The notes below the pieces were generated by a model. That model ran no database searches. It saw only the letters and a list, made by a program, of their open reading frames with translations, and had not been told where the DNA came from. DNA of 23,947 nt from assembly GCA_017542695.1 (NCBI GenBank), contig JAFXWT010000091.1:1-23947 (forward strand), written 5' to 3'. Source of the stretch: Clostridia bacterium (lineage in GTDB: Bacteria > Bacillota_A > Clostridia > Oscillospirales > CAG-272). The translations under genes and the position numbers were made by a program. Below, piece after piece: positions 1 to 19,211 of the stretch (its first letter is position 1; each line of letters starts with the position of its first letter).

Positions 1-1265
1 ACCGACGGTACCTGAAATACGGAGTAGTTATAGATCACCTCTTTCAGCCGCTTGCTCTTCGGGCAGAAAACGGTGACGCTGTGACCGCGTTTTGTCATTT
101 CGCGGGCGTATGCGTCCATCGTCCTTACCACGCCGTCGACGGACGGGAAGAATATATCGTTGAAAAGCGCGATGCTAATGGGTGCGTCCGTCGGCACCGG
201 CTTTTTCTTTTTGACATGATTTGAAATGGCGTTGCCTGTGACGACGATGACGCCGATGATTATCCATGAGTAGTAAACGAACGCGCGCCACAATATCATC
301 GCCCAGAAGAGAAGACCTCCATTCAGCGATGAGAATACAAGCGAGAACGAAACCTCGGCGGCGACGGAGTTGCCGGGCGTCGGGATTATCGTTATCGCCG
401 CGTAGATGAACACCGTCATCGAGAAGATGTTCCACCACGAGCCGCTGCCGCCGAACGCGCGTATCATGAAGAACGGGATGGAGAGGATCGCCATCTGATA
501 TATAAGCGAGATGAAGATGAGTTTCAGCGTGAAAAACGGGCGCTTGTTCATCTCGCGGATGCTCGTGACGTATTCGTTCATCACGGCGTTGACCGATTCG
601 GTTTTTTTCGCGGCGCTCTTGATGATGCGCATTTTTTCAAGCAGGCGCAGCACTCCGCCGACGATGGAGTTGAACGCTTTGGGCAGGAACGCGAACAGGA
701 TTATCGCGGCGGGGATCACCATATAGAATACAAGTCCCACGTATGGCGCGACGAGCATTTCGGGGCGGCCGCTGACGACTCTGCCGTTGGCGATGAACAC
801 GATAACGGCGATGATGATGAACGCTATCTGCTGGGAGAGAAACCCCGCGACGGGAACGGCGCCCGCTGTTCCGGACGAGTAGCCGCGCTTATGGAGGTAG
901 TGGATCTGGAACGGCTGACCGCCTGCGCCGAAAGGCGTGACGTTGTCGGTGTATTTGCCGAGCATCGCAACGTGGAACGCGCCGCGCGGATCGTATTTTC
1001 CGGCGCTCGTCATTATCATTTTTTTGTATTTTACGTACTCCGTCCACATGGCGACGCCGAAGCACAGCGCTCCGAAAATGAGGAAATACGGGCTCATATC
1101 GGAGAGAGATATCGAACGGGGCTCGTTTTTGTTCGTTATTATTTCCTTTACGACGAAAAAGCCGACGACGGCGACGTTGAGCAGTATCGTCAGTATGAGA
1201 TACAGCTTGCGCTTTTTCGGCTTGACTCCTTCGCCTGTCGCGTCTTTTTTGCCCGCTTCGTTCAT
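1..1265 (-). CDS. Flippase (YbhN/UPF0104-type) fused to GT4 glycosyltransferase, 3' end cut by window edge
   Basis: Reading the minus strand from the ATG at 1265 gives one open frame of 421 codons that runs off the window. Residues about 20-345 are a polytopic membrane domain of the lysylphosphatidylglycerol synthase TM / YbhN flippase family, including the stretch GKYTDNVTPFGAGGQPFQ typical of that family and a late IPTPGN motif. After a basic linker (VKKKKP, about 351-356) the frame continues without a stop into a typical GT4 N-terminus: ISIALFNDIFFPSVDGVV, then GHSVTVFCP at about 384-392. Such a protein could pair transfer of a sugar to a lipid with its movement across the membrane; this is inferred. 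The start is supported by GAGGAGGG about 6-8 nt upstream. It is transcribed divergently from the sulfatase gene at 1638. The GT catalytic half lies outside the window, so nucleotide-sugar specificity cannot be read. Confidence 0.87.
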   Translation of the reverse strand, partial: MNEAGKKDATGEGVKPKKRKLYLILTILLNVAVVGFFVVKEIITNKNEPRSISLSDMSPYFLIFGALCFGVAMWTEYVKYKKMIMTSAGKYDPRGAFHVAMLGKYTDNVTPFGAGGQPFQIHYLHKRGYSSGTAGAVPVAGFLSQQIAFIIIAVIVFIANGRVVSGRPEMLVAPYVGLVFYMVIPAAIILFAFLPKAFNSIVGGVLRLLEKMRIIKSAAKKTESVNAVMNEYVTSIREMNKRPFFTLKLIFISLIYQMAILSIPFFMIRAFGGSGSWWNIFSMTVFIYAAITIIPTPGNSVAAEVSFSLVFSSLNGGLLFWAMILWRAFVYYSWIIIGVIVVTGNAISNHVKKKKPVPTDAPISIALFNDIFFPSVDGVVRTMDAYAREMTKRGHSVTVFCPKSKRLKEVIYNYSVFQVPS

Positions 1266-1637: not shown

Positions 1638-3386
1638 ATGGAAACAAGCACAAACAACGGATATTTCGGCGGAGTAACAAAAAGATTGCCGCGGGCGCTG
1701 CTTTCGGGCTTTTGTGCGGGGCTGACGTTCTTCTTTTTCGGAATACTCGACATCTTCGCGTCGAACAGGAAAGAATTACTTTTTTCCTTTTCCGATTTCG
1801 GCGGTCATATAGCTTTGATATCACTTGGCGTTTCGCTCCTGCTCGCCGCGCTTGTCGCGTTTCTGCCCGGCAAAGCTTCCGACGTCGCGTTCGGCGTGAT
1901 CGTCTGGCTCTGCCTGATGGGATACGTGCAGGCGATGTTTCTCAACGGCGCGGGCTCGCTGACGGGCGACACGGGAGGCACGGAGAGCGTCGCGCTCGCC
2001 GTTATCGACGCGGCGATCTGGCTCGTCGTCGGAGCGCTTTGTATCATGGGGGCATTGACAATGCAAAAAAAGAGCATAATAAAAACGGTATCGTCGATAC
2101 TGCTCGTCGTACTCATCGCCATGCAGGCGACGGGATGCGCGATGCGGGCAAACGAGATATCACGCTCGCCGTTTGAAACGACGAAAGAAGAGCCATCTGC
2201 CGAAAACCCGACTCCGAGCGACTACATCGAAAAGGCATACCTCACTTACGAGGGGCTGAACGAAGTCTCGGCGGGGAAGAACATAATCATTTTCGTCGTC
2301 GACCGCTTTGACGTTTCGTACCTTTACGACGTGATGAACAAAACGCCCGATTTCTTCGACAGATTGACCGGTTTTACGCTTTTTGACGACAATGTCTCGC
2401 TATACTCTCGCACGTATCCGGGACTTACTTCGATGATAACGGGCATCGAAAACGATTTTTCGGGCACCGCCGCCGACTATTTCAAAAAGGCATACTCTAC
2501 GTCGGATTTTCTCCGCGACCTCAAAGCGAACAATTATAAGATCAAGCTATACACGGCGAATTATTATGCCTACACCGACGGTTCGCAGCTTTACGGCGTT
2601 GCGGACAACCTTTCCGTCGCCACCGACTACGCCGTGACGGACACGGGCGCTCTCGTCGGCAATATGCTCGCGCTGTCCGCTTACAAATATCTGCCGACGG
2701 CGCTGAAGAGCACCGTGAGCATCTCGTCGGCGTCGTTTACGGGTATTGTCGAATACAACGGAGACGCGCCGCTTTACGAGCTCGATGACCCGAAGGTCTA
2801 CGATATCATACACGAAAACGGGCTGACGCTTGACGACAGCGAAAACTCATATATTCTGATACACCTCAGCGGATGTCACGATCCGTATATTATGGACGAG
2901 GACGGCAGCCGCATCGAAAAGGGCTCGGCGGAAGCGCAGCTCCGCGGCAATTTCAAGCTCATTTACGAATACATCGACGAGCTGAAGCGCCTCGGCGTTT
3001 ACGATAACTCGACGATAGTCATAACGGGCGACCATCCGCGCGCCCGCGACGACGCCGAGATCCCGAGTCAGCCGCGGCTGACGACGCTGTTCGTCAAGCC
3101 GGCGGGCTCGACGGTAAAAGGAATGTCGTATTCATACGCTCAGGTGAGCCAGGCGAATCTCATCCCGACGCTTGTGAGATATTCCGGCATCGAAACGGAA
3201 AAAGATTACGGCAAGACGTATTTTGACATAATGCCGGGCGAACCGAACGAAAGATATCACAAATTCGAGCTTTACGTCAAAGGCGAGAGCGATCTCATCG
3301 TCACGTTCAAAGTGACTGGCGCGGGCGGCGATTTCTCAAATTGGGAGCTTTACTCGTCCGACCCCGTCGGCATGATCTACAAATAA
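1638..3386 (+). CDS. Membrane-anchored sulfatase / LTA synthase-like phosphotransferase
   Basis: The 582-residue protein has about five N-terminal membrane helices (about 21-42, 57-76, 83-103, 118-141, 147-168) followed by an outside-facing alkaline phosphatase/sulfatase-fold domain, the LtaS layout. Visible family motifs are the metal-binding Asp in FVVDRFD (D222), a Thr-containing segment SRTYPGLTSMITG (candidate nucleophile T259), HLSGCHDP (H414) and VITGDH (D465, H466). Family members transfer phosphoglycerol or phosphoethanolamine, or hydrolyse phosphate or sulfate esters, at the outer membrane face. With a glycerophosphotransferase-like domain encoded next, transfer of a phospho-alcohol to a surface glycan is the likeliest role, but the substrate is inferred. 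Only a weak Shine-Dalgarno (CGGAA) precedes the ATG. It lies 22 nt upstream of the YidC fusion and is probably co-transcribed from the promoter at 1516. Confidence 0.85.
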   Translation: METSTNNGYFGGVTKRLPRALLSGFCAGLTFFFFGILDIFASNRKELLFSFSDFGGHIALISLGVSLLLAALVAFLPGKASDVAFGVIVWLCLMGYVQAMFLNGAGSLTGDTGGTESVALAVIDAAIWLVVGALCIMGALTMQKKSIIKTVSSILLVVLIAMQATGCAMRANEISRSPFETTKEEPSAENPTPSDYIEKAYLTYEGLNEVSAGKNIIIFVVDRFDVSYLYDVMNKTPDFFDRLTGFTLFDDNVSLYSRTYPGLTSMITGIENDFSGTAADYFKKAYSTSDFLRDLKANNYKIKLYTANYYAYTDGSQLYGVADNLSVATDYAVTDTGALVGNMLALSAYKYLPTALKSTVSISSASFTGIVEYNGDAPLYELDDPKVYDIIHENGLTLDDSENSYILIHLSGCHDPYIMDEDGSRIEKGSAEAQLRGNFKLIYEYIDELKRLGVYDNSTIVITGDHPRARDDAEIPSQPRLTTLFVKPAGSTVKGMSYSYAQVSQANLIPTLVRYSGIETEKDYGKTYFDIMPGEPNERYHKFELYVKGESDLIVTFKVTGAGGDFSNWELYSSDPVGMIYK

Positions 3387-3408: not shown

Positions 3409-5472
3409 ATGGAATATATCTGCTATCCGTTCGGCTATCTTATGAAGCTGTGTCACGACATCGTGGGCAACTACGGCGTGGCGATAATACTGTTTACCCT
3501 GCTTACGAAGATAGTTATGCTCCCGTTGTCGATATGGGTGCATAAGAATTCCATAAAGATGGTGAAGATACAGCCGGAGGTAAATTTCATAAAGGCGAAA
3601 TTCTTCGGCGACAGGGAGAGGATCACCGAGGAAGAGGCAAAGCTCCACAAGAGAGAAAAATACAACCCGCTCATTTCGATAATACCGTTGGCGGTGCAGA
3701 TCGTGCTGTTGCTTGCGGTAGTGCAGATAATCAAGGCGCCGCTGACTCACATCCTACGCATTGACGCCGACGTGTGCAGGACGCTTGCCGACGCGATCGG
3801 CGTCAGCTTTAAGGACGAGCAGCTCTCCGTCGTGCGCGCCGTGCTTGACGGCACGCTCCGCCCCGATATGTTCACGGGCGCAGCGAGCGACGCGGTAAGT
3901 CTTATCTCGACGCTGAAACTCGATTTTCTCGGCTTTTCGCTCGATCTCATACCGAGCGAGGTGTGGGGACTTTACATTGTCGTTCCCGTGATCGCCGCCG
4001 TTTCGTCGTACCTGCTCTGCTACGTGCAGAACGCGGCGAACGTCATTCAGGCGGAACAGTCGAAGGTGAACAAATACGGCATGACGGCGCTCTCCGTCGG
4101 GCTGTCGCTCTATCTCGGATTTTTCGTATACACGGGCGTCGCGCTCTATTGGGTGGCGAGCAACGTCATGGCGATAATCCAGCAGTTTATCCTGAACGCC
4201 GCGATAAGTCCGAAGAAATACGTCGATTACGACGCTCTTGAAAAGAGCCGCGCGGAGCTTAAAAAGATCGAAGAGCTCGACGGCGGCAAAAAAGACGCCG
4301 AGCACCGCGCAAACGCAAAGCGCGAAAAAGAGGACTATAAGCGGTTTTTCAAGATCGTCAACAAGCACCTCGTGATCTACTCCGAGCGGAGCGGATTCTA
4401 CAAGTATTTTGAGGCGCTGATCGACGGATTGCTGAAAAGATCGAACATAATCATCCACTATGTCACAAACGACGCGCACGACGCGATATTTGAAACGGCA
4501 AAGACGGAGCCGCGCATTCGCCCGTATTACATCGGGCAGAAGAAGCTGATCACGCTGATGATGCGTATGGACGCCGACATCGTCGTGATGACGACGCCCG
4601 ACCTGCAAACGTACTACATCAAGCGCTCGCTTGTGCGCCGCGACGTCGAATACATTTACGCGCCGCACGACATGATGAGCGTACACATGGGATTCCGCAA
4701 GGGCGCGCTCGATAATTTCGACACTGTTTTTGCGACGGGCGCTCACGTGGAGCGTGAGGTCAGGGCGACGGAAAAGGTCTACGGTCTGCCCGAAAAGACG
4801 ATAGTCAAGTTCGGATATCCGCTCGCGGAAAAGCTCGAGGCGGCAGCCGCGTCGCTTGCCGACGTGAAAAACGAAAAGAAGGAAATACTGATCGCGCCGT
4901 CGTGGCAGGATGACAACCTGCTCGACAGCTGCGTTGACAAGCTGATCGAGGGGCTCATGGCTGACGACACGCACATCACGGTGCGCCCGCACCCCGAATA
5001 CTCGAAGCGCTATCCCGAAAAACTGACGTTGCTGACCGAAAAATACAAGGACGTGCCGACGGAAAAACTGACGTTCGAGCTTGATTTCACGACGAACAAG
5101 TCGATCTATTCGTCCGATCTGCTCGTGACCGACTGGTCGGGCATCGCGTATGAATTTGCGTTTGCGACAAAGAAGCCCGTGCTTTTCATCAACACGAAGA
5201 TGAAAGTGGAAAACCCCGAGTGGCAGGCGATAGGCGAAACTCCGGCGGAGATATATCTGCGGTCGGAGGTCGGCACGGCGCTTGAAAAAGACGCGCTCGA
5301 CGGCGTGAAAGCCGCGGCGGACGAGCTTCTTTCAAGCGGCGAAAAGTACCGCGAGAAGATAAACGCGCTTAAACTCGAACATCTCTATTCATACGGATCG
5401 AACGGCGCCGAGGGCGTGAAATACATTCTGCACCGCCTTTCCGAAAAACAAAAAGAAAATAAAAATAAATGA
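3409..5472 (+). CDS. YidC/Oxa1 insertase fused to CDP-glycerol glycerophosphotransferase-like domain
   Basis: One uninterrupted 687-codon frame. Residues 1-268 are a Gram-positive-type YidC/Oxa1 domain: NYGVAIILFTLLTKIVMLPL with Lys34 where the groove Arg usually lies, then the IQPE segment, a hairpin of charged residues, KYNPLISIIPL, a long insert (about 111-180) and the last helices to about 263. Residues 270-312 form a highly charged, probably helical linker. Residues about 315-680 match the Glyphos_transf (TagB/TagF) family, with APHD (H420), RPHPE (526-530) and LLVTDWSGIAYEFA (571-584). TagF-type domains transfer glycerol or ribitol phosphate from a CDP precursor on the cytoplasmic side. 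The YidC part may anchor that domain or couple polymer synthesis to membrane insertion; this is inference. The ATG follows GAGGAATGAC. The long spurious frame on the opposite strand reflects codon bias. Confidence 0.88.
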   Translation: MEYICYPFGYLMKLCHDIVGNYGVAIILFTLLTKIVMLPLSIWVHKNSIKMVKIQPEVNFIKAKFFGDRERITEEEAKLHKREKYNPLISIIPLAVQIVLLLAVVQIIKAPLTHILRIDADVCRTLADAIGVSFKDEQLSVVRAVLDGTLRPDMFTGAASDAVSLISTLKLDFLGFSLDLIPSEVWGLYIVVPVIAAVSSYLLCYVQNAANVIQAEQSKVNKYGMTALSVGLSLYLGFFVYTGVALYWVASNVMAIIQQFILNAAISPKKYVDYDALEKSRAELKKIEELDGGKKDAEHRANAKREKEDYKRFFKIVNKHLVIYSERSGFYKYFEALIDGLLKRSNIIIHYVTNDAHDAIFETAKTEPRIRPYYIGQKKLITLMMRMDADIVVMTTPDLQTYYIKRSLVRRDVEYIYAPHDMMSVHMGFRKGALDNFDTVFATGAHVEREVRATEKVYGLPEKTIVKFGYPLAEKLEAAAASLADVKNEKKEILIAPSWQDDNLLDSCVDKLIEGLMADDTHITVRPHPEYSKRYPEKLTLLTEKYKDVPTEKLTFELDFTTNKSIYSSDLLVTDWSGIAYEFAFATKKPVLFINTKMKVENPEWQAIGETPAEIYLRSEVGTALEKDALDGVKAAADELLSSGEKYREKINALKLEHLYSYGSNGAEGVKYILHRLSEKQKENKNK

Positions 5473-5481: not shown

Positions 5482-5488
5482 ATATATG

Positions 5489-6817
5489 ATGTCCAGATAC
5501 GACACGGTCATGAAATACTTTCTTGAACAGAAAGCGGAGAATGATAAGAGAACAAGCGAAAATATCGAGAAGTACCGCAAGGGAAACTGCGAACTTAGAT
5601 TTGTTTTCGGCGACAACGTTCCTTCGGAAGCCACGGCGGTGATCAGACAAAAAAAGCACAAATTTAGATTCGGCGCAAATCTTTTCATGCTCGACGAATT
5701 TGAAACCGAAGAAAAGAACAGAATATACAGAGAAAAATTCCCCGAATTGTTCAACCTTGCCACACTTCCGTTTTACTGGGACACAACAGAACCGCAGGAA
5801 GGTCATTTCAGATTCGACAAAAACTGCGAGAGAATATACAGAAGACCGTCGATCGACCTTTGCATGGAATACTGCAAAGAGCACGGCATTGAGCCGAAAT
5901 GCCACTGTCTGAATTATGATACCCTTGTTCCGGAATGGACAAAGAATCTTCCGACCGATGTGCTGAAAGAAAAGCTTGAAAACAGATTCAGACAGATTTC
6001 GGAGAGATATTCAAAAGACATACCGAGCTTTGAAGTGACAAACGAGACGCTTCAGGTGCTTCACAATACCGCTTTCTTTATGGAAGACGACTATCTTGAT
6101 TGGAGTTATCTCACAGCGGACAAGTATTTTAAAAACAACGAGCTCATTATCAACGACTACAACATCTGGGATCCCTTTGAATTCAACAGAAACTACTATT
6201 TTATGCAGATAGAAAGACTGCTCGGAAAAGGAATAAAGCATCTTGATACGATAGGATTGCAGTTCCACTGCTTTTTCCCCGAAGACAGGGAGTGGCAGCA
6301 CGCCAAACAGAAATTCAATCCGGAAAGACTCTATGCTCTTTTGGATTTGTTTGCAAAACTCGGTAAAGAAGAGCAGATCACCGAAATGACGATCCCCGCA
6401 AGGAGCAACGGAGAGGAAGACGAACTTGTCCAGGCTGACCTGACGGAGAATCTTTACAGACTGTTCTTCTCACATCCGAATATGAACGGCATAATTTACT
6501 GGAATCTCGTAGACGGATACGGATACAATGCCGAACCCGGCGACATGACTGCCGGAGAAAACATATACTACGGAGGTTTTCTCAGATTCGATATGTCCGA
6601 AAAGCCGGTATACAAGAAACTGAAACGCCTCATCAACGAAGAGTGGAATACAAAACAAACCCTCGCGCTGAAAAACGGGACCGCGTCGTTCAGAGGATTC
6701 TTCGGAGAATACGAAGCGGAACTGCACTGCGACAACAAAGTCAAAAAGTTTGACTTTTACCTTGACAAAAAGCAGTGCTCCGATTTTGAAAACAAAAAAA
6801 TATTAATTGCTGATTAG
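5489..6817 (+). CDS. Cytoplasmic GH10-family glycoside hydrolase (xylanase-like)
   Basis: 442 residues with no signal peptide or membrane span, so it should act inside the cell, perhaps on short imported or endogenous glycans. GH10 signatures in order are YWDTTEPQEGHFRFD (about 96-110, like the family's KWDATEP..G.F.F block), KCHCLNYD at the HTLVWH position, EVTNETL with acid/base Glu186, and ITEMTI with nucleophile Glu299, then IIYWNLVDG. The second His and the Trp of HTLVWH are replaced by Asp and Tyr, so substrate choice may differ from classical xylanases. Codon use is foreign: of 24 Arg codons 20 are AGA, 2 AGG and 2 CGC, whereas flanking genes favour CGC, and it is visibly more AT-rich. 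It sits between the YidC fusion and the small membrane protein, and its TAG overlaps that gene's TAGGAG binding site. Confidence 0.82.
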   Translation: MSRYDTVMKYFLEQKAENDKRTSENIEKYRKGNCELRFVFGDNVPSEATAVIRQKKHKFRFGANLFMLDEFETEEKNRIYREKFPELFNLATLPFYWDTTEPQEGHFRFDKNCERIYRRPSIDLCMEYCKEHGIEPKCHCLNYDTLVPEWTKNLPTDVLKEKLENRFRQISERYSKDIPSFEVTNETLQVLHNTAFFMEDDYLDWSYLTADKYFKNNELIINDYNIWDPFEFNRNYYFMQIERLLGKGIKHLDTIGLQFHCFFPEDREWQHAKQKFNPERLYALLDLFAKLGKEEQITEMTIPARSNGEEDELVQADLTENLYRLFFSHPNMNGIIYWNLVDGYGYNAEPGDMTAGENIYYGGFLRFDMSEKPVYKKLKRLINEEWNTKQTLALKNGTASFRGFFGEYEAELHCDNKVKKFDFYLDKKQCSDFENKKILIAD

Positions 6818-7334: not shown

Positions 7335-8390
7335 ATGAAAAACTGGCTTCTTCCCGAAAGCGGGAAATACTTCAAGGCGAATATGCACTGCCACAGCGTT
7401 CTCTCCGACGGATCATTGACCGTCGAGCAGCTCAAGGAGGTCTACAAGCGTCACGGTTACTCGATAATCGCGTTCACCGATCACAACGTGCTCATCGACC
7501 ACTCCGACCTCAACGACGAGAACTTCATGGCGATCACGGGATATGAAATGGACGTCAACGACGTGCCGGGAGACAGAGCGTGGAACCACACGCCGTGCAC
7601 GCACATCTGCTTTTACGCAAAAGACGCGCACAACACGGTGATGCCGTGCTTCAATCCGAAATACATCCCCGACAATCACGCCGATCTGCGCGCGGCACAG
7701 AAATATTCGGGCACGCCCGACTATGAAAGAGTATATTCCAAAGTCAGCGATATGATAGATCAGACGTGCAAAGAGGGCTTCCTTGCTTGCTACAACCACC
7801 CGACGTGGTCGGAGCAGGACATGGCGGATTATCTTGACATCAAGGGCGTTTTTGCAATGGAGATATACAATCACAGCTGCGTTGTCGGCGGGTATCCCGA
7901 ATTCAACGAGAGAGTTTACGACGACATGCTCCGCCGCGGCAACAAGATCTATTGCATAGCATCCGACGACAACCACGACAGATTCCCCGAGGGCAGCCCG
8001 CGCTGGGACAGCTGCGGCGGATTCATCATGATCAAGGCGGAAAAGCTCGAATACGGCGCTATAATGCAGGCGCTCGAAAACGGCGATTTCTACGCTTCGA
8101 CGGGACCCGAGATATACGATCTCTGGACGGAGGGCGAGGAAGTGCACATCAAGTGCTCGCCGGTCGAGAGGATTAGCTACACGACGTACGGACGCCACGC
8201 TGTCGTGACGACGGGCGAGAAAACGGGCGACAAGATCACCGAGGCGGTGTTCAAAGTGTCCGGACTTTACGACAGGTACGGCCGCGTCACGATCTATGAC
8301 GGTGCGGGACACTACGCATGGACGCGCGCGTACTTCGATTTCTGCAAGATGGAAAACGGAAGATACGATCCTCAGCCGTTCAGAAAGTGA
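7335..8390 (+). CDS. PHP-domain metal-dependent phosphoesterase
   Basis: 351 residues, soluble, no signal peptide. The polymerase-and-histidinol-phosphatase (PHP) fold is shown by MHCHSVLSDGSLT (about 17-29), AFTDHN (about 50-55), a later Glu in TGYEMDV, NHPTWSE (about 154-160) and IASDDNHD (about 213-220), the series of His and Asp residues that bind a metal cluster. It resembles stand-alone PHP proteins of the TrpH/YciV group that hydrolyse phosphate esters of nucleotides or sugars; the substrate cannot be told from sequence. It has its own promoter at 7268 and its own terminator at 8412, so it is a single-gene unit. A 350-codon open frame on the other strand is a codon-bias shadow. Confidence 0.87.
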   Translation: MKNWLLPESGKYFKANMHCHSVLSDGSLTVEQLKEVYKRHGYSIIAFTDHNVLIDHSDLNDENFMAITGYEMDVNDVPGDRAWNHTPCTHICFYAKDAHNTVMPCFNPKYIPDNHADLRAAQKYSGTPDYERVYSKVSDMIDQTCKEGFLACYNHPTWSEQDMADYLDIKGVFAMEIYNHSCVVGGYPEFNERVYDDMLRRGNKIYCIASDDNHDRFPEGSPRWDSCGGFIMIKAEKLEYGAIMQALENGDFYASTGPEIYDLWTEGEEVHIKCSPVERISYTTYGRHAVVTTGEKTGDKITEAVFKVSGLYDRYGRVTIYDGAGHYAWTRAYFDFCKMENGRYDPQPFRK

Positions 8391-8411
8391 TCGACATACG
8401 GACATAAAAAG

Positions 8412-8436
8412 AAAAAGCGTCTGCGGACGCTTTTTT
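8412..8436 (+). terminator. Terminator of the PHP gene
   Basis: 10-bp stem AAAAAGCGTC / GACGCTTTTT with a TGCG loop and a 6-T run. Confidence 0.9.
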
Positions 8437-8458
8437 GCTTTTTGAATCGGGAAAACGA

Positions 8459-8487
8459 TTGACAAATCGCGGTAAAAAATATATAAT
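8459..8487 (+). promoter_or_regulatory. Consensus sigma-A promoter with no gene directly behind it
   Basis: TTGACA (8459-8464), exactly 17 nt, TATAAT (8482-8487): a full consensus match. The -35 box is centred in CGATT-GACA-AATCG, a small palindrome. The next plus-strand gene, rsmA, starts about 240 nt later, and the complement of tRNA-Thr lies in between. It either drives rsmA through a long leader antisense to the tRNA, or makes a small RNA. Confidence 0.75.
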
Positions 8488-8530
8488 TGATTTATTAATA
8501 TTACTTCTTTGCGCGCCGGCGTATCCGCTC

Positions 8531-8577
8531 AAAAAAGAAAAGTCCGAAAACCTGCGCAAGGCCTGTTTTTCGGGCTT
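8531..8577 (-). terminator. Probable terminator of tRNA-Thr
   Basis: Read on the minus strand, AAGCCCGAAAA pairs with TTTTCGGACTT (one mismatch) around an internal 15-nt segment and is followed by TTCTTTTTTG. It lies just past the CCA end of the tRNA. On the plus strand the same stem has a G-U pair but no T-run. Confidence 0.45.
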
Positions 8578-8582
8578 ATCAA

Positions 8583-8658
8583 TGGAGCTGGTGAAAAGAC
8601 TCGAACTTTCGACCTGTTGATTACGAATCAACTGCACTACCGACTGTGCTACACCAGC
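8583..8658 (-). tRNA. tRNA-Thr, anticodon CGT
   Basis: The minus strand folds as a full cloverleaf: acceptor GCTGGTG / CACCAGC, D arm GCAC..GTGC, anticodon stem GTTGA / TCAAC with the 7-nt loop TTCGTAA (anticodon CGT, reading ACG), 5-nt variable loop, T arm GAAAG-TTCGAGT-CTTTT, discriminator T and an encoded CCA at 8583-8585. It is a single tRNA with its own promoter. Its complement produces the well-known false protein containing KTRTFDLLITNQLHYRL. Confidence 0.95.
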
Positions 8659-8668
8659 GACAAAACGT

Positions 8669-8697
8669 ATTTTATCACAGAAATTACGATTTGTCAA
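8669..8697 (-). promoter_or_regulatory. Promoter of tRNA-Thr
   Basis: On the minus strand: TTGACA (plus 8692-8697), 17-nt spacer, TAAAAT (plus 8669-8674). The tRNA begins about 10 nt past the -10 box, a normal distance. Confidence 0.85.
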
Positions 8698-8733
8698 TAA
8701 CTAATTTCAATAAATTTCAAAAACGGAGAACAA

Positions 8734-9573
8734 ATGCGACTTACAGACATTTCATACGCTCACGCCGTGATGAGAAGTCACGGTATCAACTCGCAAAAGC
8801 GGTTTGGGCAGAACTTTCTGACAAGTTCCGTCGTCGTCGACACGATAGCGGACGCCTGCGCCGACGGGGACTGCGGGATAATAGAGATCGGTCCCGGCAT
8901 CGGGACGCTTACCGAGGCGCTTGCCGAGCGGTACAAAAAGGTCGTGGCGATAGAGATCGACCGCGGGCTGATACCTGTGCTTGACGATACGCTGTCGAGA
9001 TTTCATAACGTCGTCATCATCGAGGGCGACGCGATGAAAACCGATTTCGCGGCGCTTTGCCGCGAGCATTTTGGCGGGATGCGTGTGTGCGTCTGCGCGA
9101 ATTTACCGTACTACATCACCTCTCCCATAATAATGAAACTGCTTGAAGAGGGCGGCGGGCTGTTCGAGTCGCTGATCGTGATGATACAAAAGGAGGTCGC
9201 GGACAGGTTCACGGCCGAAGCGGGCACGTCGGATTACGGCGCGATTACGCTTGCGGTCAACTACCGCGCCGTCATCGAGAAGATCATGAACGTCGCGCCG
9301 GGCAACTTCATCCCGCCGCCGAAAGTCACGTCGACTGTAATAAAAATGGACATATTGAAGAAGCCGCCTGTCGCTTGTCGGGACGAAAAGAAGATGTTTG
9401 AGATAATTCGGCTCGCGTTTTGTCAGCGGCGCAAGACGCTATCGAACGCGCTCTCGTCGGCGTATGAAAAGGAGCGCACGGAGGCGGCGCTGGAAGCGCT
9501 CGGACTGCCGCGTGACGTGCGCGGCGAGCGGCTGACGCTATCCGATTTTGCGGCGCTGACGGATGCTATCTGA
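8734..9573 (+). CDS. rsmA: 16S rRNA (adenine(1518)-N6/adenine(1519)-N6)-dimethyltransferase RsmA (KsgA)
   Basis: 279 residues, the usual length for RsmA/KsgA. It dimethylates two adjacent adenines in helix 45 of 16S rRNA late in small-subunit assembly; loss in other bacteria gives kasugamycin resistance. Visible are the entry motif KRFGQNFL (about 27-34), the SAM-binding EIGPGIGTLTE (about 52-62), the acidic end of strand 2 (AIEID), and the catalytic NLPYYITSP (about 125-133). The RNA-binding C-terminal domain is complete, including LAFCQRRKTLSNAL. GGAG lies about 8 nt before the ATG. The likely promoter is the consensus pair at 8459. murD follows after 66 nt without a clear terminator, so they may share a transcript. 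Confidence 0.96.
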   Translation: MRLTDISYAHAVMRSHGINSQKRFGQNFLTSSVVVDTIADACADGDCGIIEIGPGIGTLTEALAERYKKVVAIEIDRGLIPVLDDTLSRFHNVVIIEGDAMKTDFAALCREHFGGMRVCVCANLPYYITSPIIMKLLEEGGGLFESLIVMIQKEVADRFTAEAGTSDYGAITLAVNYRAVIEKIMNVAPGNFIPPPKVTSTVIKMDILKKPPVACRDEKKMFEIIRLAFCQRRKTLSNALSSAYEKERTEAALEALGLPRDVRGERLTLSDFAALTDAI

Positions 9574-9620
9574 TAAATTCACCAAAATCCGAAAAGGCGC
9601 ATAGAATATAGAAAAATCAA

Positions 9621-9640
9621 TTTTATACAACGGTGTAAAA
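9621..9640. repeat. TTTTATAC-N4-GTATAAAA palindrome, copy 2
   Basis: TTTTATAC-AACG-GTGTAAAA: same 8-4-8 geometry as the copies at 7152 and 15370, with one G-U-type mismatch. Its last base is the A of the murD start codon, so it covers the region where a ribosome binding site should be. Confidence 0.55.
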
Positions 9641-10986
9641 TGAACGAAAAGCTCGAAAAATTCAAAACGGCGATGCGCGGGAAAACAGCCGCGCTTGTCG
9701 GCTTCGGTGTGTCGAATCGCGCGGCCGCGCGGTTCCTTATATCCGTCGGGATGGCGGTGGTGGCCTACGATGCGAAGGCAACGGACGAGGCAAAATCGGC
9801 GGCGCGCGAAATCGGCGCCGAGCTCTTCGAGCGAGAAAAATTTGAAAAAATCGACGCCGATCTCATCCTTCGCACGCCCGGCGTACGTCCCGACGCGATC
9901 TCGGTCACAAGAGGGGAGTTGACGAGCGAAATGGAGCTTTTTTGCTCGCTTTGCCCGTGTCCGATATACGCCGTTTCGGGCAGCGACGGAAAAACGACGA
10001 CGACGACGATCATATCGAAGATGCTCGGCGAGGAATTTGCGGGTACGGAACGGCGAGTGTGGCTCGGCGGCAACATCGGAACGCCGCTTCTGCCCGAGAT
10101 CGAAAACATAAAATCCGACGATTTTTGCGTGCTTGAATTGTCAAGTTTTCAGCTCATGACGATGGATTTTTCGCCGCGCGTCGCGGTCGTGACGAACGTC
10201 AGCCCGAACCATCTCAACTGGCACACGTCGATGAGCGAATACGTCGCGGCGAAGAGGCGGATATTTGTCGGTCAGACGGCGGGGTGTCGCCTTGTGACAA
10301 ACGCGGAAAACGAGATAACGCGGAATTTTGCCGCCGAGGCGCGATGTGAAGCGCGACTTTTTTCATCAAAAAACAGCGCCGACGGCGAGATACGCGGCGG
10401 GGCGATTTTCATAGGCGGCAGGCGGATAATTGCTCTTTCTGATATAGTGATACCGGGCGTTCACAACGCTGAAAACATGATGGCGGCGATGCTAGCCGTC
10501 GACGGCGTCGTTTCGGACGAAAATATGTATAAAGTCGCGTCTACGTTCCGCGGAGTGCCGCACCGCGCCGAGCTTGTGCTTGAACGCGGCGGCGTGAAAT
10601 TTTACAACAGCTCGATCGACACGTCGCCGACGCGGACGATCGCCGCGCTGTCATCGTTCAAAGAAAAAGTGATAATCATTATCGGCGGCTACGACAAGCA
10701 CATCCCGCCGGAGCCGCTCATCGTGCCGCTTTGCGAAAAAACGAAAAAGATCTTCTGCACGGGCGGCACGGGGCGCGCCGTTTACGATATGATGACGGGC
10801 GCGGGATATGGCGGGGAGATATGCTACGTCCCGGATTTTGACGAGGCCGTGGCGCGCGCGGCGCGAAGCGCCGGGAGCGGCGACGTCGTGCTGCTGTCGC
10901 CCGCGGCGGCGAGCTTCGATCGCTTCCGGAACTTTGAGGAGCGCGGCGAGAGATTCAAACAAATATTGAAAGATATAAATATATGA
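9640..10986 (+). CDS. murD: UDP-N-acetylmuramoyl-L-alanine--D-glutamate ligase MurD
   Basis: 448 residues, the family's length. MurD adds D-Glu to UDP-MurNAc-L-Ala in the cytoplasm. An N-terminal nucleotide-sugar domain (VGFGVSNRAAARFL; ILRTPGV) is followed by the ATP loop GSDGKTTTTT (about 114-123), the LELSSFQL block (about 165-172), TNVSPNHLNWH (about 183-193), and AAKRRIF with the Lys that is carbamylated in this family. The C-terminal domain has GVPHRAE and GGYDKH. Two places differ from textbook MurD: HLNWH for HLDRH, and NSSIDTSPTRT where NDSKATN is usual; both fit the Clostridial branch as I remember it. Only a weak GGTG lies before the ATG, inside the palindrome at 9621-9640. An M42 peptidase follows 15 nt later. 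Confidence 0.94.
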   Translation: MNEKLEKFKTAMRGKTAALVGFGVSNRAAARFLISVGMAVVAYDAKATDEAKSAAREIGAELFEREKFEKIDADLILRTPGVRPDAISVTRGELTSEMELFCSLCPCPIYAVSGSDGKTTTTTIISKMLGEEFAGTERRVWLGGNIGTPLLPEIENIKSDDFCVLELSSFQLMTMDFSPRVAVVTNVSPNHLNWHTSMSEYVAAKRRIFVGQTAGCRLVTNAENEITRNFAAEARCEARLFSSKNSADGEIRGGAIFIGGRRIIALSDIVIPGVHNAENMMAAMLAVDGVVSDENMYKVASTFRGVPHRAELVLERGGVKFYNSSIDTSPTRTIAALSSFKEKVIIIIGGYDKHIPPEPLIVPLCEKTKKIFCTGGTGRAVYDMMTGAGYGGEICYVPDFDEAVARAARSAGSGDVVLLSPAAASFDRFRNFEERGERFKQILKDINI

Positions 10987-11001
10987 ATATAAGGAGACGA
11001 A

Positions 11002-12033
11002 ATGGAAACAAAACAACTGATATATGACGTATGCTCTCTCATGTCGATAAACGGATATGAGTACGAATGCAGCGAACAGCTCGAAAAGATCGTCATGCCT
11101 TATTTCGACGAGTGCGAAAAGGACAACGTCGGGAACCACATTTTTATCAAAAAATGCGGTAGACCGAATGCGAAAAAGCTTTTTGTCGACACGCATTTCG
11201 ACGAGATCGGGTTGATGGTCAAGGGCATTACCGACGAAGGATTTTTGCGCGTGTGTTCGATCGGCGGCGTCGACGCGCGCCTTTTGCCATGTGCGGAAAT
11301 GACCGTTTACGGAAAAGGCAAAACGTTTCGCGGCGTTGCGTTGGACAAGCCGGGGTGCATCCGCAAGGACGATGAAAAAGGCAAGCTCACGCCCGTTACA
11401 GACATACTTATCGACACGGGGCTCGACAAAGCCGAAATATCGAAATACGTCGATATAGGAACTCCCGTCGGTTTCGCTCCCGTTTACGGAGAGCTCGGCG
11501 ACGGATATTATTACGGAAAGGCGCTCGACGACAAGCTCTGTTCCGTCGCCGTGATCAAGGCGATGGAGTATCTCGACAAAGAAAAACTCGCCTGCGACAT
11601 ATATTTTTCGATGTCGTGCCGCGAGGAAGTCGGTCACCGCGCCGTCAGCTCGGCGGCGTTCCGCGTCGAACCCGACGCGGCGATCGTCCTCGATGTGACG
11701 TTCGGACTCGGACCGGACGGGAAGAAGGGCGCGGATATGAAAACGGGCGGCGGGGCGGTCGTTTCGCTCTCCGTGATACTCGACAAAAAACTCACCGACA
11801 AGATAATCGACACGGCAAAGGAAAAGGAGATACCGTATCAGATCTGCCTTGAAGGCGTCGGCACGGGGACTCACGCTGACGACGTGGCGTTCGTCGGGCG
11901 CGGCATACCGACGGCGCTGCTCGGAATACCTGTCTTTTTCATGCATACGCCCGTCGAAACAACGAAGATCGACGATGTGGAATCGACGGCGAAGCTCATC
12001 GCCGCGTGTCTCGAAAAGGAGGATCTGATATGA
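11002..12033 (+). CDS. M42-family metallopeptidase (glutamyl aminopeptidase/TET type), copy A
   Basis: 343 residues. M42 enzymes are cytoplasmic di-metal aminopeptidases that form large tetrahedral particles and finish off short peptides. The active-site set is present: THFDEIG (first His and Asp), KALDDKL with the bridging Asp, CREEVGH with the general base and metal Glu pair, VLDVTFG with the next Asp, and FMHTPVE with the last His. The ATG has AAGGAG 5 nt upstream and lies 15 nt past murD. Its stop overlaps the start of copy B by 4 nt (ATGA), so translational coupling is likely. It is one of three tandem paralogues with low mutual similarity, so the duplications look old. Confidence 0.9.
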   Translation: METKQLIYDVCSLMSINGYEYECSEQLEKIVMPYFDECEKDNVGNHIFIKKCGRPNAKKLFVDTHFDEIGLMVKGITDEGFLRVCSIGGVDARLLPCAEMTVYGKGKTFRGVALDKPGCIRKDDEKGKLTPVTDILIDTGLDKAEISKYVDIGTPVGFAPVYGELGDGYYYGKALDDKLCSVAVIKAMEYLDKEKLACDIYFSMSCREEVGHRAVSSAAFRVEPDAAIVLDVTFGLGPDGKKGADMKTGGGAVVSLSVILDKKLTDKIIDTAKEKEIPYQICLEGVGTGTHADDVAFVGRGIPTALLGIPVFFMHTPVETTKIDDVESTAKLIAACLEKEDLI

Positions 12034-13070
12034 AGCTGAAAGGTATAGAACTGATTAAGGCGCTTTCCGACGTTTTCGCTCCTTCGGGATGCGAGGACAA
12101 AGCGGCGGAGCTGATTATCGGGCAGATCGGCAAGGACGCGGGAACGTCCGTCGACCGCGTCGGAAACGTGGTGGCTTACGTGCAATCAGGCAAAAAAGGC
12201 GCGCCGCGCGTCATGCTGACGGCGCACATGGATGAGCCGGGCTTTCTTGTCAAAGACGTGGACGGTGACGGCAAGGTCTGGATGAAGTTTTACGGCGGCG
12301 TGCCGACGGAACGCATTTCGGGTCGGCTCGGCGTGATAAACGGCACTGAAAAATGTATCTTCTCGGCAAAGCCGATACATCAGCTGTCCGGCGACGAACG
12401 TTCAAAGCCGACGGCGGCGGACAGGATATACGCCGAGCTCGGTTTTAAGGATAAGGAAGCCGCCGACGCGAAGATCAAGGTCGGAGACTACGGCGCGTTC
12501 GCTCCGTCTTTTGCCGAAATCGGCGGGTATTATAAGGGAAAATCGCTCGGATCGCGCGCCGCGTGCGCTCTTCTGATCGAGATGATCCGCGAGCTGAAAG
12601 CGGCGAAAAAGCCGCTTGACGTCGACGTTTATTTCGTGTTCACGACGCGCGGCGAGGTCGGCAACATGGGCGCGGAAGTGGCGGCGAACGTCATCGCGCC
12701 CGATTTTGCGATAGCTCTCGACGGCATACAGGCGTTCGACACGCCCGACGTGCCGGACGAGCTGAAGATCACGACGCTCGGCGGCGGCGCGGCGGTGCTC
12801 GGCATCGACGCAAAGACGGTGTTCCACCCCGCTAAAACAGATGAGATCATGCGTCTTGCCGAGGAGTGCGGAATAAAGTATCAATACGTCGTGCGTCAGT
12901 CGCAGATAGGCGAGGGCGCTGTGACGCAAAGGGCGCTCGGCGGGCGCGTATGCGTCGGGATCGCAATACCGACGAGGTACAGAAAGAGCGCGTCGGAGAT
13001 GATATCGGTCGCAGACTGCGACGCGGCAAAGGCGCTTATAAAAGAGATAATTATTCGGGAGGGTAAATAA
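12030..13070 (+). CDS. M42-family peptidase homologue lacking key active-site residues, copy B
   Basis: 346 residues from the ATG at 12030, which has AAGGAGG upstream inside copy A and overlaps its stop codon; a longer reading from 12006 would place that site inside the gene. The fold-level M42 features remain (AHMDEPGFLV, ALDG, IPTRY), but compared with copies A and C three catalytic positions have changed: the bridging Asp in x-L-D-D-R is Gly (SLGSR), the general-base Glu of QEEVG is Gly (TRGEVG), and the final metal His of RYGHSE is Lys (RYRKSA). It should therefore bind metal poorly and not hydrolyse peptides. Its intact frame and place inside the operon argue for a retained non-catalytic job, for example as a subunit of a mixed particle with A or C; that is inference. 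Confidence 0.88.
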   Translation: MKLKGIELIKALSDVFAPSGCEDKAAELIIGQIGKDAGTSVDRVGNVVAYVQSGKKGAPRVMLTAHMDEPGFLVKDVDGDGKVWMKFYGGVPTERISGRLGVINGTEKCIFSAKPIHQLSGDERSKPTAADRIYAELGFKDKEAADAKIKVGDYGAFAPSFAEIGGYYKGKSLGSRAACALLIEMIRELKAAKKPLDVDVYFVFTTRGEVGNMGAEVAANVIAPDFAIALDGIQAFDTPDVPDELKITTLGGGAAVLGIDAKTVFHPAKTDEIMRLAEECGIKYQYVVRQSQIGEGAVTQRALGGRVCVGIAIPTRYRKSASEMISVADCDAAKALIKEIIIREGK

Positions 13071-13071
13071 A

Positions 13072-14073
13072 ATGGCAGAGATAGAATACTTACGCAAATT
13101 CATGCTCGCGCAGGGCGTTTCGGGCGACGAGGGCGACGTTGCGGCTATTATCGCAAAGGAGATAGCTCCCTACGTGGACGATGTATACACTGACGCGATG
13201 GGTTCGCTCATCGCTCACAAAAAGGGCAGAGAGGGCGCAAAAAAGCTGATGTTCGCCGCTCACATGGACGAAATCGGCTTCATGGTCAATTACATCACGG
13301 ACGAGGGGTATCTTCGCGTATCTAAAATGGGCGGGATAAACTTCACGGCGGCGTCGTTCTCGCACGTTGTGTTCAAGAGCGGTCTGCGCGGCGTTCTCGT
13401 TCCCGAGGCGCGCACGGCGGTGCAGAATTATTCGCCAGAAAAGGTCTACGTTGACATCGGCGCAAAGAACAAAAAGGACGCGGAGCGCCGCGTCAAAATC
13501 GGCGATACTTGCAGCGTCGTTTCGGGGCTTTATCACCTGATGGGCAGTCGTGTGTGCGGGCGGCCGATCGACAACCGCATCGGATGCTATATGCTTTACG
13601 AGGTCGCAAAGCGGCTGACCAAGTGCGAAAACGACACGTATTTCGTGTTCACGTGTCAGGAAGAGGTCGGCGTTCGCGGCGCGAAGACGAGCGCTTACGC
13701 GATAAATCCCGATTACGGCTGCGCCGTTGACATCGGCGGTTCGGGCGACGTTATCAATTCCGCGCCGTTTGAGGTGGTGCTCGGAAAAGGGCCGGCTATT
13801 AAAATCAAAGACGGAATGGTCATCTGCCACAGGGAAGTTGTCGAGATGATGAAGGAGATCGCCGACGAAAAGAAAATAAAATATCAGCTTGAAGTTCTCG
13901 AATCAAGCGGCACCGACACGTGCATGATCCAACAGGCGCGCGGCGGCGCAAAGGCGGGCGCGATATCGGTTCCGACGCGATACGGTCACAGCGAGGTCGA
14001 GACGATCGACATGAACGATGTCGAGGGCGGCATTGAAATAATGAAAGGAATGTGCGAGAGGGTTCTCGCGTAA
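13072..14073 (+). CDS. M42-family metallopeptidase, copy C
   Basis: 333 residues. It carries all M42 active-site groups in standard form: AAHMDEIGFMV, RPIDNRIG (bridging Asp), CQEEVGVRG (base and metal Glu), AVDIGG (Asp) and VPTRYGHSE (last His), so it is likely an active cobalt- or zinc-dependent aminopeptidase in a TET-like complex. It is the most typical of the three copies. GGGAGGG lies about 8 nt before the ATG, which begins 1 nt after the copy B stop. Within the gene end, GCGAGA-GGGT-TCTCGC (14054-14069) forms a small hairpin just before the next start codon. Confidence 0.93.
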   Translation: MAEIEYLRKFMLAQGVSGDEGDVAAIIAKEIAPYVDDVYTDAMGSLIAHKKGREGAKKLMFAAHMDEIGFMVNYITDEGYLRVSKMGGINFTAASFSHVVFKSGLRGVLVPEARTAVQNYSPEKVYVDIGAKNKKDAERRVKIGDTCSVVSGLYHLMGSRVCGRPIDNRIGCYMLYEVAKRLTKCENDTYFVFTCQEEVGVRGAKTSAYAINPDYGCAVDIGGSGDVINSAPFEVVLGKGPAIKIKDGMVICHREVVEMMKEIADEKKIKYQLEVLESSGTDTCMIQQARGGAKAGAISVPTRYGHSEVETIDMNDVEGGIEIMKGMCERVLA

Positions 14074-17668: not shown

Positions 17669-18487
17669 ATGACGGAATACGTTTACGGGGACGTTTTGTT
17701 CATCATCGACTTTTCGATGGATTTTCTTTGTCTGTTCGTGGCGGGGAAGCTCTCGCACGAGAGGATGAGAACGTGGCGCGTCGTGCTTGGAGCTGTGCTC
17801 GGCGCGCTTTACGGCGTGACGTCGCTCATGTATTCACTGCCGACGCTTTTCGGGATCTTGATCGAGATCGCCGCGGCGTTTGTCGTCGTCGCCGTCGCGC
17901 TGTGGCGGGGGAGGGCTGTGCGATGGCTCTTACAGACGGCGCTGTTTTACGGCGCGTCGGTGCTTCTCGGCGGCGCGATGACGCTGATATACTCGAAGCT
18001 CGGAAAGTACAGAACTTACATCGATGTGGGCGGGAGCGTGCAAACGGCTCTCGGCGACGTGCCGATCTGGGTGTTCGCGCTCGCCGCCGTCGCGTCGGCG
18101 GTGATGACGAAGCTTTTGTCGATGCTGTTGAAGCGGAAGAACGCCGTTTGCACCTGCGCGCTTGAAATGGTGCTCGACGGCAAGAGGTACGAGCTGTCGG
18201 GGCTCGTCGACAGCGGAAACGTATGCGTTGAGCCGATCTCGGAGACGCCGGTGATATTTCTTTCGTCGCGGCTCGGGGTGGATACGGGAACGGCGGGGCT
18301 TGAAAGGGGCGTTTTTGCCGTTCCCGTCTCGACGGCCGCGGGAGGCGGGATAGTGTTTGCGAAAAAGCCCGAATCGCTCGCCGTTAAGACGAGGCGCGGA
18401 TTTGAGAAGCGGCGCGCGCTTGTGGCGGTCGGCGAGCGTGATGACTACGACGGGTGCGACGCGCTCGTGCCGCTCGATCTTATTTGA
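17669..18487 (+). CDS. spoIIGA: Sporulation sigma-E factor processing peptidase SpoIIGA
   Basis: 272 residues. The N-terminal half has about five membrane helices, starting [19 protein letters not shown]; the C-terminal half is an aspartic-protease-like domain with the signature LVDSGN (about 181-186) followed by [11 protein letters not shown], which fits the family. In Bacillus SpoIIGA sits in the sporulation septum and removes the pro-sequence of sigma-E after a signal from SpoIIR in the forespore. GGAGG precedes the ATG by 5 nt. sigE starts 13 nt downstream, the conserved order. No clear Spo0A box or sigma-A promoter could be read upstream. This gene and sigE are the main evidence that the host forms endospores. 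Confidence 0.93.
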
Positions 18488-18500
18488 TTCGGAGGTGGAT

Positions 18501-19211
18501 ATGAAAAGATTTTTTGCGAAAATTCGTCTTTGGATTTGCCGTCTGTGGCTGAAGTTTTCATTCGGCGGGGCGTATTACGTCACGGGCGCGGAGTTGCTCC
18601 CACCGCCGATGACTCCCGAGGAGGAGGCGGACGTACTCGAGCACATCGACGAATATCCGGACGCGAGGCGGCGGCTCGTGGAGCGGAATTTACGGCTTGT
18701 CGTCTACATTGCCAAAAAATTCGAGAACACGGGAGTTGGGCTTGAAGATCTCGTCTCGATCGGAACGATCGGGCTGATCAAGGCGGCGAACACGTTCCGC
18801 GCGGACAAGAACATCAAGCTCGCTACATACGCCTCACGGTGCATCGAAAACGAGATACTTATGTACATCAGAAAGACGGGGAACGCGCGGACGGAGATAT
18901 CGTTCGACGAGCCGCTCAACATCGACTGCGACGGGAACGAGCTGCTCCTTTCCGACGTCGTCAGCTCGGAGGATGACAGCGTGAGCCGCCGCATCGAGGA
19001 CGCGGAGGAGAAGCGGATAATCATGGAAGCGGTGGCAAAGCTCGACGCGCGCGAGCGCGAGATCGTCGAGCTTCGCTTCGGTCTATGCGGGCGGCGGGAG
19101 TACACGCAGAAGGAGGTCGCCGACATGCTCGGAATATCGCAGTCGTATATTTCGCGGCTCGAAAAGCGGATTATCGAGCGACTGCGCGCGGAAATAGCGG
19201 GGAAATTGTGA
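18501..19211 (+). CDS. sigE: RNA polymerase sporulation sigma factor SigE (pro-sigma-E)
   Basis: 236 residues, close to the 239 of Bacillus SigE. The basic and hydrophobic N-terminus ([19 protein letters not shown]) with [16 protein letters not shown] after it is the pro-sequence that SpoIIGA removes. Region 2 reads [28 protein letters not shown] and [15 protein letters not shown]; region 4 reads [15 protein letters not shown] and the helix-turn-helix [22 protein letters not shown]. It controls the early mother-cell programme of sporulation. GGAGGTGG lies 5 nt before the ATG at 18501; a longer upstream reading would overlap the end of spoIIGA in another frame and is not supported. sigG, next in Bacillus, is absent here. 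Confidence 0.96.

Follow-up and report, generated by a model that had tools for sequence, protein, structure and literature searches.

A YidC-like membrane module fused to a PF04464-type transferase in Clostridia, and its possible place in a three-module envelope-tailoring system

Results

One open frame joins a YidC/Oxa1-like module to a PF04464-type transferase module

We analyzed a 23,947-nucleotide stretch of DNA from a member of the Clostridia (Oscillospirales, CAG-272; assembly GCA_017542695.1, contig JAFXWT010000091.1), which is referred to here in its whole length as the window. The gene under study joins a YidC/Oxa1-like membrane module to a PF04464-type cytosolic transferase module through a charged linker, and it follows a gene for a sulfatase-fold enzyme (Table 1). 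A ribosome-binding-like AGAGGA sequence precedes its ATG, and the frame runs open for 687 codons. The product matches PF02096 (60KD_IMP) at residues 22 to 263 (E = 5.7e-31; 108 bits against a cut-off of 35) and PF04464 (Glyphos_transf) at residues 314 to 594 (E = 1.4e-14; 54.3 bits against 22.1) in Pfam, and it scores 105.6 bits, above the cut-off of 84.3, with the NCBIfam model TIGR03592 (yidC_oxa1_cterm). Residues 3 to 108 of the YidC module align to the solved YidC structures 3wvf and 5mg3 with an E value of about 5e-16. An earlier reading of this DNA, made from its letters alone (the sequence-only reading), had described a single frame holding both domains with RPHPE and TDWSGIAYEF motifs, and the motifs are present at residues 526 to 530 and 574 to 583.

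That reading had also raised the question of whether the same architecture occurs elsewhere in Clostridia. Both domains were present in all of the best 120 of 6231 homologues (67 to 95% identity, 674 to 697 amino acids), and 57 diverse full-length fusions aligned end to end with the window protein at 47 to 78% identity. Across these 57 proteins 78 alignment columns are invariant, and 26 of them fall within residues 1 to 268. Because the best 120 homologues share both domains and the 57 diverse members align over their whole length, the fusion is confirmed as real rather than a product of misassembly. Scanning genome contigs identified 52 fusion loci, most of them from uncultured gut or rumen Clostridia according to the record titles. 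Among the matches listed, two fusions bear an NCBI name, in both cases "membrane protein insertase YidC," so that a plain insertase label in current annotation may conceal a fused transferase. No published description of a YidC-PF04464 fusion, or of the YidC-sulfatase fusion described below, was found in the open-access literature searched.

Table 1. Features of the window at and around the fusion gene
Feature	Position	Strand	Basis
YidC-PF04464 fusion gene	3409..5472	+	Open frame, 687 amino acids; Pfam and NCBIfam matches
YidC/Oxa1-like membrane module, residues 1-268	3409..4212	+	PF02096 match
Groove position K34 of the YidC module	3508-3510	+	
Charged linker, residues 269-313	4213..4347	+	Sequence and alignment A1
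PF04464-type cytosolic transferase module, residues 314-687	4348..5472	+	PF04464 match at 314-594
H420 of the transferase module	4666-4668	+	
RPHPE, residues 526-530	4984-4998	+	
TDWSG, from residue 574	5128-5142	+	
Sulfatase-fold (alkaline-phosphatase superfamily, LtaS-like) enzyme with hydrophobic N-terminus	1638..3386	+	PF00884; ends 22 nt before the fusion
LPG_synthase_TM flippase-like domain and start of a glycosyltransferase family 4 (GT4)-like domain, cut by the window edge; divergent	3..1265	-	PF03706, E 1.8e-27; weak PF13439
Glycoside hydrolase family 10 (GH10) gene, next after the fusion	5486..6817	+	PF00331, E 7.7e-29

The fusion is an extra YidC copy

The sequence-only reading had asked whether the hosts carry a separate YidC gene beside rnpA. 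Host-genome counts given here refer to 26 draft genomes of relatives, themselves related to one another, rather than to the window's own genome. A separate YidC was detected besides the fusion in all 26 (in four of them the profile matches in two pieces); one of these, G024, has a broken fusion frame, the two halves lying in separate frames. Thirteen further genomes each carry a separate YidC of 354 to 456 amino acids. In the seven hosts that were inspected by eye, rnpA and jag flank the separate YidC in every case and yidD was seen in six; the YidC between rnpA and jag was confirmed by Pfam in one of the seven. The window fusion gene is not positioned beside rnpA and jag, and phylogenetic comparison placed the fusion YidC modules in a clade of their own, apart from the stand-alone YidCs compared (support 100). 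In the relatives' genomes the fusion is thus an extra copy and not the sole insertase of the cell.

Two features of the YidC module had been taken as signs of a changed role, namely a lysine at the groove position and a long insert at residues 111 to 180. The lysine is present (K34), and the position is basic in all 57 fusions (K in 51, R in 6). In ordinary stand-alone YidCs of the relatives, read by eye in 21 of 22 extracted sequences, the corresponding residue is K in 14, Y in 3, E in 3 and N in 1, so that a basic residue is absent from 7 of the 21 and the position does not discriminate. The insert sits in the loop that connects YidC helices two and three. The same stretch is also long in stand-alone YidCs of the hosts (the PF02096 match of L064 spans residues 27 to 313; L053 is a further example) and far shorter in the 635-amino-acid fusion L040, whose match covers residues 22 to 211. 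Both features occur in stand-alone YidCs, and we rejected them as non-diagnostic.

At L051 (9950-11330) a 229-amino-acid frame with the YidC part only overlaps a frame that reads by eye as a transposase (10605-11330). We considered this locus as a natural stand-alone YidC partner and rejected it, since the overlap makes it look like a truncated copy; it is probably a fusion cut short by an insertion sequence.

The transferase module keeps candidate catalytic residues

Whether the catalytic residues are conserved across homologues had likewise been left as a question. All 57 fusions have H420, R526, H528, D575, W576, S577 and E582, and the H420 and H528 columns are also invariant in an alignment with 14 stand-alone transferase homologues. 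We take H420 and H528 to be the equivalents of the essential TagF histidines. Profile comparison with the PF04464 protein of host G025 aligns the motifs bearing both residues, and all 11 members of alignment A3 match PF04464. These patterns suggest that the C-terminal domain keeps a transferase-like active site.

The transferase domain is only remotely similar to solved TarL, with marginal matches (E = 0.027 and 0.044), and the PF04464 match ends at profile position 292 of 367, leaving the C-terminal part of the profile uncovered. CDP-glycerol is an unlikely substrate because TagD (TIGR01518) is above cut-off in only two of the 26 relatives' genomes, G013 and G025. With TagD mostly absent from the hosts, a teichoic acid polymerase was rejected as our principal interpretation.

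A sulfatase-fold gene lies upstream of most fusions

Neighbor-gene counts were made by tblastn at 48 loci, that is, the window and 47 others; L047, L049 and L050, which are cut by contig ends, L048, the broken frame of G024, and L051 were left out. In 42 of 46 loci, the window among them, a co-oriented sulfatase-fold gene lies no more than 2.3 kb upstream of the fusion; when both sides are considered out to 8 kb, the number rises to 44 of 46. The 37 directly adjacent genes end 8 to 231 nt before the start of the fusion match. The product of the window gene matches PF00884 above cut-off (E = 7.4e-9; 36 bits). Its closest solved relatives are LtaS structures 2w5q and 2w5r (E = 6e-5; 25 bits), and the NCBIfam LtaS equivalog scores far below its cut-off (18.1 against 970 bits). 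Residues D222, T259, H409, H414, D465 and H466 of the partner are conserved in at least 93% of a 44-member alignment.

A second layout moves the YidC module onto the sulfatase-fold enzyme

In other genomes, YidC-sulfatase fusions (PF02096 plus PF00884; 840 to 940 amino acids) lie beside stand-alone PF04464-like genes, for example at L102 (7613-10141), L105 (3623-6361) and L097 (7832-10600). All 10 tested partner proteins of this second layout match PF02096 and PF00884, two of them with PF00884 below cut-off (23.0 and 24.8 against 25 bits). Each of 16 stand-alone transferase genes has a PF02096 gene (a frame of 847 to 943 amino acids) on the same contig within about 5 kb, 14 of them within about 50 nt; the distances were estimated from frame lengths, and the sulfatase part of the neighbor was tested for 14 of the 16. 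The stand-alone transferases have a short conserved hydrophobic N-terminus of their own, LYIDPGTGSMLFTI.

The full YidC-transferase fusion, the stand-alone transferase and the YidC-sulfatase fusion were all sought in the same class-wide sample of 391 genomes by searches that scored a few first-look candidates per genome, which makes absences less certain. Five of these genomes yielded the full fusion. Eleven carry the YidC-sulfatase fusion, and all but G266 also carry the stand-alone transferase, which was detected in no genome outside these 10 (hypergeometric probability 5e-19, a value that overstates independence, the profiles having been built from side-by-side genes in the same genomes). 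One genome, G228, carries both layouts. Because the stand-alone transferase co-occurs with the YidC-sulfatase fusion in all 10 genomes, we conclude that the YidC-like, CDP-X transferase and outer-face transferase modules belong together. We regard this sample as the strongest part of the evidence.

Layout-to-layout profile comparison gave E = 5e-49 over 358 columns for the transferase halves and E = 1.5e-23 over 436 columns for the sulfatase parts; the YidC parts are more distant (E = 8e-10 over 197 columns). In each of 14 second-layout YidC modules, the groove position holds N, Q, S or T. The YidC groups of the two layouts each form one clade (support 100), and a single common clade is not rejected (p-AU 0.64), with long branches meeting; we therefore do not claim two independent recruitments.

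Head-group activation genes recur near the fusion

In 19 of the 26 host genomes, the fusion has a LicC/nucleoside triphosphate (NTP)-transferase-type gene within 6 kb, compared with about 0.9% per genome under random placement; the count draws on the strongest 34 of 60 matches in genomes that are related. Seventeen hosts carry a close homologue of a helix-turn-helix (HTH)-LicC protein (56 to 100% identity), within 6 kb of the fusion in 12 of them. When genes of the phosphoenolpyruvate (PEP) mutase type are included, the count within 8 kb is 23 of the 33 loci that extend for 3 kb or more in both directions, and 27 of all 48 loci; the nucleotidyltransferase superfamily is broad, and weak NTP matches may include sugar nucleotidyltransferases.

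The top solved match of the LicC-like genes is LicC 1jyk (E = 3.5e-25 and 1.3e-26), followed by PntC 6pd1. At one specificity position LicC has D105 and PntC has E104 (PMC6697681), and with this position mapped on the structure-match alignment, Glu occupies it in 16 of 18 LicC-like proteins.

The apparent supply routes differ between loci. Some have an HTH-LicC gene together with an aminoethylphosphonate (AEP)-type transporter or amino acid permease gene. In the close relatives L001 and L012, LicC and a permease follow the fusion directly, unlike in the window. PhnS/PhnU-like, AEP-type transporter genes occur in 13 of 48 loci as best NCBIfam matches below the cut-offs. Others have phosphonate synthesis genes: phosphonopyruvate decarboxylase, PEP mutase and a PsrA-type dehydrogenase (the last below cut-off) at L046, where the longest decarboxylase frame overlaps the fusion end by 11 nt; phosphonopyruvate decarboxylase, PEP mutase and AEP transaminase at L010; and PEP mutase at L041. 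In the second layout, phosphonate or activation genes were seen in 6 of 13 regions (L099, L105, L106, L107, L108 and L109), and L105 directly adjoins relatives of LicC, AEP transaminase, PEP mutase and phosphonopyruvate decarboxylase. A LicC-like gene (37%) also lies 4 kb away in L104.

A third route is a nucleotidyltransferase fused to a CobD/HisC-like pyridoxal phosphate-type enzyme (L040:6485-8317, L039:13688-15496 and L109:7093-9009). The nearest solved relative of the CobD-like part is 6oux, which we take to be SMUL_1544. For this CobD homologue of S. multivorans, ethanolamine phosphate synthesis has been suggested (PMC4585668). The nucleotidyltransferase-CobD fusion is possibly a one-protein route from phosphoserine to CDP-ethanolamine.

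LicD commonly consumes CDP-choline-type donors, yet no LicD was detected in 19 of the 26 hosts, and the fusion is the sole PF04464 match above cut-off in 23. Matches to the CDP-alcohol phosphatidyltransferase family (PF01066) number exactly one in 12 hosts and none in one. Seven hosts (G001, G006, G014, G016, G018, G022 and G026) have a LicC/NTP-type gene and only one PF01066 gene, with no LicD or other PF04464 protein found; the fusion is therefore the clearest candidate consumer there, draft genomes permitting.

Other genes of the window and loci

The flanking genes of the window are less constant. We examined the divergent gene with the flippase-like domain as a conserved partner and rejected it, since neither it nor the GH10 gene belongs to any cluster common to at least three of the loci examined; neighbor cluster 6, two members of which were tested, is a sodium:alanine symporter with no real similarity to it. 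This symporter gene lies divergently upstream of the sulfatase-fold gene in 10 loci (for example, L003:6697-7983 and L008:6525-7829). Another family, cluster 26, lies between the sulfatase-like gene and the fusion at L039 (9024-9926), L046 (8630-9895) and L052 (8998-9879); its L039 member has no Pfam match.

Proteins of about 670 amino acids at L041 (2840-4852, by Pfam) and L099 (9961-11976, by similarity) join NTP transferase, CTP_transf_like and PEP mutase domains. Beside the LicC-like gene of L104, and near its YidC-sulfatase/transferase pair, frames at 7370-12199 read by eye as a BCCT transporter and an MttB-type methyltransferase. Elsewhere in the window, three consecutive frames at 11002-14073 resemble by eye related M42-type aminopeptidases, and two frames at 17669-19211 likewise read by eye as a SpoIIGA-like protein and a sporulation sigma factor, which suggests that the host is a spore-former.

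Discussion

The fusion resembles several known systems and departs from each. It shares the fold family of the YidC/Oxa1/SpoIIIJ insertases by profile and aligns to solved YidCs, but it is fused to a transferase, forms its own clade, is not the rnpA-jag copy and is an extra in all hosts. Like TagF and TarL it exceeds the PF04464 cut-off, and both histidine motifs align with the G025 protein; unlike them it is fused to YidC, is very distant from TarL, leaves the profile C-terminus uncovered and occurs in hosts mostly lacking a TagD match above cut-off. The cytidylyltransferases near the fusion resemble LicC and PntC of the Pnt/Lic pathways (PMC6697681), to which some loci add PEP mutase, phosphonopyruvate decarboxylase and AEP transaminase. 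The published neighborhoods, however, name LicD-like transferases, "YidC" and "glycerophosphotransferase" do not occur in the main text of that paper, and LicD was not found in most fusion hosts. Finally, the upstream partner exceeds the PF00884 cut-off and has LtaS as its best solved relative, yet its scores are low, and in the second layout it is fused to a YidC module.

On balance, we modestly favor a reading in which the fusion is one part of a three-module envelope-tailoring system that combines head-group transfer, a YidC groove and a sulfatase-fold step on the outer face. The cytosolic PF04464-type domain would take a small head group bearing phosphate or phosphonate, in its CMP- or CDP-activated form, and pass it to an acceptor embedded in the membrane; aminoethylphosphonate and phosphoethanolamine are the most likely head groups. 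With its lipid-facing groove the YidC-like module would hold this acceptor, and it may assist the passage of the modified lipid through the bilayer, and the sulfatase-fold enzyme encoded upstream would complete transfer to a surface molecule on the outer face. We infer which substrate and acceptor are used, which way the relay runs and any movement of lipid by the YidC module; the substrate assignment draws on gene context, LicC residue patterns and elimination. Since the YidC module is joined to the cytosolic transferase in one layout and to the outer-face enzyme in the other, the simplest mechanism is a transmembrane relay centered on this module. Passage of lipid through the module is plausible because Escherichia coli YidC and other Oxa1-family insertases have been reported to scramble lipids in vitro (PMC10491306, a preprint). 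A stronger form of the proposal, in which this branch of the YidC/Oxa1 family has left protein insertion and its groove carries across a lipid that the CMP/CDP-X transferase loads and the sulfatase-fold enzyme unloads outside, is more tentative, and we would not expect it to hold in full.

Several observations weigh against the envelope-tailoring proposal. No activation gene lies in the window, which covers 3.4 kb upstream and 18.5 kb downstream of the fusion, 10 of the 33 loci with 3 kb or more in both directions show none within 8 kb, and phosphonate or activation genes were not seen in six of the 13 second-layout regions. A convincing LicC relative was not found in G008, and the residues at the second LicC specificity position vary (11 D, 5 E, 1 Y and 1 A among 18 proteins). 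PEP mutase is above cut-off in only 3 of 26 hosts, with one further match below it, and was not found in the other 22; most hosts would therefore need to import AEP or to use phosphoethanolamine or choline. The relatedness of the draft host genomes and the inflated co-occurrence probability weigh on the same side.

The sequence-only reading had proposed a TagF/TagB-type glycerol phosphate polymerase whose insertase domain may have become an anchor or a groove for a lipid-linked polymer. An anchor or groove for a membrane-bound acceptor remains reasonable, given the extra YidC and the retained histidines; the glycerol phosphate polymerase is not supported. A teichoic acid-type enzyme, anchored by YidC and moving glycerol or ribitol phosphate from CDP-glycerol ahead of LtaS-like synthesis outside, would account for the Pfam assignment of the C-terminal domain, its weak match to TarL (at best E = 0.027), the kinship of the upstream partner with LtaS and the presence of TagD in G013 and G025. 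We nevertheless regard such an enzyme as improbable: TagD exceeds its cut-off in those two hosts only, the fusion has no second PF04464 protein above cut-off beside it in 23 of 26, its match stops short of the profile end, and the neighbors in relatives supply other substrates, namely CMP/CDP-aminoalcohols or phosphonates.

The role of the YidC module can also be read in simpler ways. It may be a mere anchor that keeps the transferase at the membrane and handles neither lipid nor substrate. The hydrophobic N-terminus of the stand-alone transferases speaks for this, as a simple anchor can suffice in the second layout; that layout nonetheless keeps a YidC module, on the sulfatase-fold partner (10 of 10 proteins tested and 10 of 10 genomes), and a third of the invariant columns of the fusions (26 of 78) lie in the YidC module. 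We consider the anchor a possible explanation, if a doubtful one. Very unlikely, in our estimation, is a true second insertase that takes membrane proteins, for example the sulfatase-fold partner, into the bilayer cotranslationally while the fused transferase modifies them. Its recognizable PF02096 domain and the basic groove residue of all 57 fusions would fit, but every host has a normal YidC, and the annotated recurrent neighbors belong to head-group metabolism and transport, not to translation or secretion. The non-basic groove of the second layout (14 of 14) also argues against insertion, a weak point given that 7 of 21 ordinary YidCs are non-basic as well.

The later steps that lead from CMP-activated phosphonates to the cell surface were called enigmatic in 2019 (PMC6697681). 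The envelope-tailoring proposal offers a concrete, testable transferase pair for this delivery, and the lipid relay, if true, would provide the transferase that has been missing from bacterial phosphonate tailoring, at least in these hosts. Through the swapped fusions a YidC-family module is linked to the chemistry of glycans or lipids instead of protein insertion, which is relevant to the recent proposal that insertases in general scramble lipids. Together, the fusions suggest that an insertase fold has been recruited to envelope chemistry.

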